Origin: Lacticaseibacillus absianus | Lineage (GTDB): Bacteria; Bacillota; Bacilli; Lactobacillales; Lactobacillaceae | Direction: 5' to 3' | Assembly: GCF_013407595.1 (NCBI RefSeq) | Contig: NZ_JABEKX010000005.1 | Coordinates: 1 to 64,000 of the forward strand | DNA: 64,000 bases | Shown: one piece after another, positions 1,896 to 2,325 of the stretch | Layout of the letters: every line of letters begins with the position of its first letter | Numbering within the stretch: position 1 is the stretch's first letter | Notes under the pieces: model-generated | Databases searched by the model: none | What the model saw: the letters and a program-made list of their open reading frames with translations, nothing else | Told to the model about the DNA's origin: nothing | Position numbers and translations under genes: made by a program

Positions 1896-1990
1896 TCTGG
1901 GACAGGTGATGTAACCACTACCGCCGGGTAGACACCGCTCCTCCACGCCTTAGGCTCAATGGCGTGGGGGAGCGGTGTTTTTATTTTTTC
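1896..1990 (+). promoter_or_regulatory. Putative guanidine-IV (mepA-type) riboswitch with terminator, upstream of gdx
   Basis: The segment 1901-1931 holds GACAGGTGATGTAACC followed by a small hairpin CTACC-GCCG-GGTAG. This resembles, from memory, the guanidine-IV (mepA motif) aptamer. It runs directly into an 18-bp terminator stem (1932-1949 with 1961-1978, one wobble) followed by a T-run. The next gene is an SMR protein of the guanidine-exporter type, the usual partner of guanidine riboswitches. A possible promoter is TTGACG (1867-1872), 18 bases, TATCCT (1891-1896). The terminator is seen directly; the aptamer class is inferred. Confidence 0.55.
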
Positions 1991-2007
1991 GAGGAGTGTT
2001 AGTGAGC

Positions 2008-2325
2008 ATGGCTTGGCTATATTTAGTGATCGCAGGGGTATTCGAGGTGATCTGGGCGACGTTCATGAAGCTGAGTGACGGCTTCCACCGGTTCGGTTTC
2101 TCGGTGCTGACCGTGATCGGTATGGTGATCAGCTTTATCTGCTTAGCGGAAGCGACCCACCGCCTGCCGATGAGTCTTGCGTATCCGATCTGGACGGGTA
2201 TCGGCGCGGTCGGTAGCGTGATCGTTGGGGTCATTTTTTTCGGTGACCGCGTCGGCCCGTGGACGTGGGTGTTCGTTGGCGTGCTGCTAGTGGGGTTGAT
2301 CGGGATCAAGGTGACAAGTCGGTGA
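2008..2325 (+). CDS. gdx: SMR-family transporter, Gdx/SugE type (guanidinium exporter)
   Basis: A 105-residue four-helix small multidrug resistance protein. Features of the Gdx (formerly SugE) branch are MAWLYLVIAGVFEV at the start with the essential glutamate in helix 1, a WATFMKLSDGF loop and the YPIWTGIGAVGS motif in helix 3. Gdx proteins exchange guanidinium for protons as antiparallel dimers in the membrane. ATG at 2008 is chosen because the family starts MAW; GTG at 2002 has better spacing to GAGGAG (1991-1996) and would add two residues. A single gene is present rather than a heteromeric pair. Expression probably depends on the upstream riboswitch-like terminator. Confidence 0.88.
   Translation: MAWLYLVIAGVFEVIWATFMKLSDGFHRFGFSVLTVIGMVISFICLAEATHRLPMSLAYPIWTGIGAVGSVIVGVIFFGDRVGPWTWVFVGVLLVGLIGIKVTSR

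Follow-up and report, generated by a model that had tools for sequence, protein, structure and literature searches.

Positions 1903–1990 on the forward strand of the window, the 64,000-nt stretch of Lacticaseibacillus absianus DNA that was analyzed, very probably hold a guanidine-IV-type transcriptional ON switch in a compact, short-loop variant. This candidate leader lies ahead of a gene for a Gdx-like SMR exporter. The assignment was made by analogy: as in the architecture described in the text of PMC7736828, a Gdx-type SMR gene is preceded by a pair of hairpins whose loops are complementary, with an intrinsic terminator as the second hairpin. The preliminary description of this DNA had named the same class, and our results agree with it. 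The observed evidence comprises the sequence anatomy, its conservation, the covariation of the kissing loops, and the gene family. The letter G72 (L. lactis numbering) is absent, with a possible U68–A71 compensation, and the leader was therefore classed as a guanidine-IV variant.

A consensus scan located the promoter (forward strand), with a −35 element TTGACG at 1867–1872, an 18-nt spacer, and a TG-extended −10 element TATCCT at 1891–1896 (9 of 12 matches). Transcription is expected to start near 1903, and the string GACAGGTGATGTAACC (1901–1916) forms the 5' end of the transcript. The P1 hairpin, CTACC-GCCG-GGTAG (1918–1931), provides the first aptamer half through its kissing bases GCC at 1923–1925. 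The intrinsic terminator (1932–1978) has an 18-bp stem (1932–1949/1961–1978) and an 11-nt loop, UUAGGCUCAAU (1950–1960), with the kissing bases GGC at 1953–1955. This loop is the functional second aptamer half, and it was not named in the preliminary description. Only five loop bases follow the kissing triplet (1956–1960). Within them we propose an intraloop pair, U1956–A1959 (68:71 in L. lactis numbering), on the basis of counts across leaders. The U-rich tail TTTTTATTTTTT occupies 1978–1989, and a Shine–Dalgarno sequence, GAGGAG (1991–1996), is presumably spaced for the GTG at 2002. The preliminary description had correctly placed GACAGGTGATGTAACC, the P1 string, and the adjoining terminator. 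The overlap of about one base that it gave for P1 and the terminator does not exist, as P1 ends at 1931 and abuts the terminator at 1932. The genome contains a single copy of the leader.

The gene behind the leader, gdx (2002–2325, forward strand), starts at the GTG at 2002, and the ATG at 2008 is a possible start. Its product matched Pfam PF00893 with 104 bits. Comparison with PDB entries gave the 6wk5 group, which we take to be Gdx-Clo, as the best match (E = 1.6e-29), versus 4.2e-10 for EmrE. Residues E13, W16, S42, Y59, and W62 are present and were invariant in a five-protein alignment; these are presumably the Gdx residues, in the numbering of the Gdx-Clo work. The NCBIfam SugE model scored 91.2 bits where its cut-off is 126 bits, so the Gdx subtype rests on the structure and residue comparison and not on the SugE model. 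These comparisons place the predicted product nearer to Gdx than to EmrE/Qac within the SMR family, in line with the earlier assignment as a guanidinium-type exporter. An intergenic repeat of 55 bases was observed 3' of gdx, in two direct copies (2335–2389 and 2461–2515) that are 91% alike.

In folds of partial transcripts, P1 was stably formed from the outset, while the terminator grew to 18 pairs. The terminator hairpin alone had a folding energy of −38.7 kcal/mol. For the stretch 1890–1990, which includes promoter bases, a z value of −6.1 was obtained, and none of 200 shuffles was equally stable. The leader fold is beyond chance.

Covariance models were built from 20 genus leaders (R1) and from 67 leaders (R2). 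The window sequence is part of both models; therefore, its own R1 and R2 E-values are circular. Sequence-only profiles made without the window row each returned one site in the 64 kb. The profile of 19 genus leaders aligned to 1915–1987 (E = 1.4e-10) and that of 66 leaders to 1911–1988 (E = 9.6e-8). With 55 rows, after the window and 11 near relatives were dropped, the site was again 1911–1988 (E = 3.2e-5). All three alignments start at 1911 or later, leaving the first ten bases of GACAGGTGATGTAACC outside. The Rfam scan of the window gave no guanidine-IV match and no RNA family at its gathering score. A RybB match at 1928–1985 was far below its gathering score and covered mainly the terminator; it was rejected. 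The sugE leader of Lactococcus cremoris (L233), used as a positive control with Rfam 15, was likewise unmatched to guanidine-IV, as were 12 further loci whose leaders are canonical or nearly so. The copy of Rfam that was searched seems to lack the guanidine-IV model. The silence of Rfam on the window is thus not evidence against the class, and the Rfam search, which had been offered earlier as a way to refute it, turned out to be uninformative.

The distribution of the leader was followed in 30 Lacticaseibacillus genomes, the window's own included. An SMR protein search found one close gdx homologue in each of 20 genomes; five further weak matches were other proteins. Both hairpins were present upstream of all 20 homologues, so that a known type of guanidine sensor appears to precede gdx in each of the 20 same-genus genomes in which the gene was found, and the window's form of it is compact. 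The P1 loop reads [AG]CCG in 20 of 20 leaders, and the terminator loop contains AGG in each. In the genus alignment, CCGG and AGG are invariant columns (20/20), and the paired positions covary in both stems, that of P1 and that of the terminator. Among the 15 genus genomes listed, all 11 with a model match have gdx, and the four without a match lack it.

Beyond the genus, R1 matched 127 of the 301 genomes searched in the family and 48 of the 198 searched in the order, weak matches included; 20 weaker R1 matches of these scans were kept outside the leader set. R2 matched 20 of 147 genomes of another family in the order, three of which (G567, G593, and G607) had only matches without the motif when inspected by eye. 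It also matched 37 of 398 phylum genomes, many of them weakly. For named Gdx loci, 62 of 80 had an R2 match on the strand of the gene, a count that includes the weak and far-upstream match of L285 and many records from genomes already behind R2. A script parsed 156 of the 167 leaders, leaving 11 unparsed. The genes that it found after the parsed leaders were SMR (131), MATE (6), and other (10), with none found for nine. Its labels were corrected to SMR for L004 and L166, to MATE for L183, and for L042 to two leaders, one of which precedes an SMR gene. Pfam confirmed MATE after L071, L074, L183, and L209, GNAT after L042 and L157, and a B3/4 domain gene after L066. MATE and GNAT are among the gene classes named for guanidine-IV in the text of PMC9788692.

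Two of these loci merit separate mention. L042 (G308) carries two guanidine-IV elements within 1 kb (1501–1601 and 2150–2257, −); one precedes gdx and the other a GNAT acetyltransferase. L291 (1394–1484), from Enterococcus nangangensis, has a P1 and loop near-identical to those of Lacticaseibacillus porcinae, in the U68 form. This likeness suggests horizontal transfer of the switch together with gdx.

In the window, the P1 loop GCC is complementary to the terminator loop GGC, and a kissing contact between them is predicted. In general form, RCC in the P1 loop faces GGY in the terminator loop. For the third kissing pair, 141 distinct leaders gave A–U in 88, G–C in 41, G–U in 12, and A–C in none (Fisher p = 4e-25); this value, like that for 68:71, overstates the evidence, as related leaders are counted separately. 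The 80 named loci are outside these counts. Among them, 20 had no parsed motif, and L260 and L283 were parsed at the wrong site, which produced a false A–C. Inspection of the 11 unparsed leaders by eye showed A–U as the third pair in seven (L148, L155, L162, L165, L169, L180, and L182). In L167, P1 was present and the AGG loop absent; L117, L172, and L173 carry no third-pair call. One leader that does not belong to the counted set, L247 from Tetragenococcus, shows U facing C, unpaired, at this position. A Gdx tree with 133 rows required at least 16 changes of the first P1 loop nucleotide and at least eight of nucleotide 67. The tree-based test of independence yielded only four well-supported independent pairs, too few with a protein of 100 residues; therefore, relatedness may still contribute to the association. 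Guanidine-IV-like leaders with altered kissing bases were also observed (L222, L194, L199, L247, and L167), showing a P1 loop ACAG, AAG for AGG, UCC facing GGC, or no AGG loop. These have possibly decayed or changed.

The terminator loop was compared with published mutants. In the L. lactis RNA, which binds guanidine with a KD of 0.21 mM, the second-loop mutations G66C, U67A, and G72C abolish binding and G62C weakens it, and the published consensus gives 97% conservation for U67 and G72 (text of PMC7736828). The numbering was transferred through L233, which has an ACCG-capped P1 hairpin and a loop containing AGUAGGUCUGAG. G62, U63, G66, U67, A71, and G72 of the 95 Lla construct fit L233 under one numbering. 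The match is inexact, as U33 of 95 Lla does not fit under that numbering, so the strain or the numbering differs. With R2, L233 scored 59.7 bits without being in the model, and the window scored 60.9 bits as a member of it.

In this numbering, the window loop reads U62 U63 A64 G65 G66 C67 U68 C69 A70 A71 U72. It retains only G66 (G1954) of the four positions tested by the mutants, differing at 62, 67, and 72. Position 67 is C1955, complementary to G1923 of P1, where canonical leaders have an A–U pair. Position 72 is U1960, and G is likewise absent from 71. Among 126 distinct leaders with C68, G was found at 71 or 72 in 125 and at 73 in one. Fifteen distinct leaders have U68, and 13 of them are without G at 71/72, having A71 (12) or A72 (L007); the remaining two have both A71 and G72. 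Counted over 22 distinct 11-nt loops, the combination of 68 with 71/72 was C..G in 11, U..A in 10, and other in one. U68 occurs in five genus groups (g1, g20, g24, g27, and g33), as well as in Enterococcus nangangensis (L291) and one distant MATE leader (L209). All 17 U68 leaders of the five genus groups carry the G–C kissing pair. The tree requires at least four events for the U68 change and provides one well-supported independent pair.

The shift from C68...G71/72 to U68...A71/72 is apparently a compensated change, as judged from the leader counts. This leads us to a tentative joint reading, which we hold to be a real possibility and just short of probable. Position 68 would pair with 71/72 inside the loop, mostly as C–G and as U–A in the window clade, and G72 would be a pairing partner and not an irreplaceable ligand contact. 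The same pair would form the base of the extra hairpin in Gd4v, and the two forms would stand back to back in the window. The harm done by G72C may then arise because the mutation breaks the 68:72 pair. The text of the guanidine-IV publications, figures and supplements aside, does not describe a pair of 68 with 71/72. The question raised is whether position 72 is a ligand contact or a pairing partner.

For the ligand, the ON direction, and the competition mechanism, we infer the following from published guanidine-IV work. The polymerase would start near 1903, and P1 would form at once, followed by the 5' strand of the terminator and its loop. As long as the terminator is formed only at its top, the bases from 1932 to about 1940, which later belong to the lower part of the stem, would serve as a flexible linker. 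The P1 loop GCC could kiss the loop GGC during this linker stage, and guanidinium, by analogy, would stabilize the kissing complex. Once complete, the 18-bp stem would hold the loops far from each other. Because P1 abuts the terminator and leaves no linker, kissing and the full terminator would be mutually exclusive. With guanidine present, the lower stem would be delayed, resulting in readthrough into gdx; in its absence, the terminator would win. The decision would fall between the completion of the loop (1960) and that of the lower stem (1978). Gdx would then export guanidinium. For the guanidine-IV RNA of C. botulinum, the text of Gao et al. 2024 (PMC11611296) describes a kissing loop in competition with the growing second stem and proposes that the lengthening of this stem shortens the linker. 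Steric exclusion is likewise suggested in the text of Lenkeit et al. 2020 (PMC7736828). The earlier proposal that guanidine favors readthrough gains support, by analogy, from the ON-switch architecture published there.

The string GACAGGTGATGTAACC had been regarded as the aptamer core in the preliminary description. It lies at the start of the transcript and, apart from its last bases, outside the profile alignments. A working role for it in the switch, as an antiterminator (P0) pairing with the terminator base, is most improbable in our judgment. In window partial transcripts, GGUG.UGU can indeed pair with ACA.CGCU, and AGGU recurs at the same place in near relatives, but AGGU is missing there in most other genus leaders. 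Moreover, when the P0 pairing of 156 leaders was compared with shuffled 5' ends, eight of the 156 had no more than 10 of 200 shuffles as good, where about eight were expected; for the window itself, 19 of 200 shuffles paired as well. The pairing is at chance level, and GACAGGTGATGTAACC was rejected both as aptamer core and as antiterminator. The tetramer AGGU is located at 1905–1908, near the 5' end of the transcript, and recurs only in the near relatives L003–L009 and L033. We consider it equally improbable that the two hairpins are a plain terminator or attenuator that responds to no ligand and merely sets the basal level of gdx. The high stability of the terminator (−38.7 kcal/mol) and the lack of an Rfam family at its gathering score would suit such an element. 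However, it would account neither for the constancy of CCGG and AGG nor for the covariation of the kissing bases in 141 distinct leaders, nor for the guanidine-IV gene classes.

The loop change could instead mark a relative with a shifted ligand: the same switch would sense, through its short U68–A71 loop, a different small cation, in the way suggested for Gd4v. Methylguanidine, an amine, or a guanidino compound would be candidates. In L. lactis, G72 is needed, since G72C abolishes binding (text of PMC7736828). In the transaminase-linked set of Gd4v, G never occurs at D1, a position where guanidine-IV needs a conserved G (text of PMC9788692), and the window clade likewise lacks that kind of G in 13 of 15 distinct U68 leaders. 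On the other hand, 16 of the 17 U68 leaders precede an SMR/Gdx gene (15 by script and L004 on a further look; none was found for L154), a gene class (COG2076) that never occurs with Gd4v according to the text of PMC9788692. The terminator top of the window gdx leader is without the extra hairpin, and both partners have changed together, to U68 and A, consistent with a preserved structure. A shifted ligand is therefore unlikely in our view, if less so than the two alternatives above, and the guanidine-responsive ON switch is the reading that we prefer.

A second leader of related design was found on the minus strand, in divergent orientation. A LysE/ArgO-type exporter gene (1076–1693, −; Pfam PF01810, 79.6 bits) is preceded by a candidate Gd4v-like leader (1709–1825, −), detected by a model (R3) and covariation, and by a promoter-like site from the consensus scan (1859–1831, −). 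The P1 loop of this leader is GUCG, and the terminator loop starts with GUAGGCA, followed by a top hairpin and then GGAAG. P1, the terminator, and the top hairpin covary in nine sequences. The kissing triplets were seen by eye to change together: GUC/GGC in the genus, AUC/GAU in L338 and L341, GUC/GAC in L340, and ACC/GGU in L339. R2 gave no match to this leader. Beside the LysE gene, the reading frame 599–802 (−) had a borderline HTH_Tnp_1 match (24.3 bits, cut-off 24.1) and is perhaps an IS3-type orfA.

LysE homologues were present in 23 of the 30 genus genomes. Strong R3 matches occurred in 12 of the 30, each no more than about 400 bases upstream of a LysE homologue; eight further genus matches were weak, and five of these hit the same places on the opposite strand. 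In three g20 genomes, too, R3 matched before LysE-like genes (Pfam LysE, 88 bits for L338). L339 (G178, g6; 1501–1607) stands before a gene of the ornithine cyclodeaminase/mu-crystallin family (PF02423, 186.6 bits) and is the only link between the R3 set and such a gene; the 37 genomes of its genus gave one further R3 match, a weak one (E = 0.07). Among 398 phylum genomes, R3 found only the window, with no link to transaminase-linked Gd4v RNAs outside the family.

The likeness to Gd4v lies in the extra top hairpin, which corresponds to the Gd4v D2 feature (text of PMC9788692). As described there, Gd4v is an orphan guanidine-IV variant found in the context of transaminase, GNAT, and MATE genes; genes of the ornithine cyclodeaminase family occur in the same operons as genes under Gd4v control. 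A single word starting with 'lyse' occurs in the paper's main text, and no LysE gene was seen in the passages covered, gene tables in figures and supplements aside. The minus-strand leader is thus a candidate Gd4v-like riboswitch and would link an orphan riboswitch design to a LysE-type exporter. If this is true, the LysE-type gene hints at the Gd4v ligand, which may be an exported basic amino acid or guanidino compound.

In comparison with known systems, guanidine-II (mini-ykkC) shares the loop–loop interaction and the guanidine exporter genes with the gdx leader. It has two conserved ACG trimers (text of PMC7736828) and acts by translational control (text of PMC12186494); the window leader differs in having no pair of ACG loops. 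The Gd4v motif shares the two-hairpin kissing design and the absence of the G needed by guanidine-IV, if D1 corresponds to G72, as is presumed here. The gdx leader differs from it in that its terminator top carries no additional hairpin and in its downstream SMR gene, a class never associated with Gd4v (COG2076; text of PMC9788692). Guanidine-IV (GGAM-1, mepA motif) consists of two hairpins and a pseudoknot, with the second hairpin as the terminator, and is a transcriptional ON switch found mainly upstream of sugE (text of PMC7736828). Shared features are the P1 and terminator hairpins, their complementary loops, the terminator as expression platform, the downstream sugE/gdx gene, and G66. The window leader departs from the published form through its 11-nt terminator loop, the third kissing pair (G–C instead of A–U), the abutment of P1 on the terminator, and the bases at 62, 67, 68, and 72, with U68–A71 replacing C68–G72. 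In function, the switch would be an ordinary member of guanidine-IV, and its variant structure is the new point.
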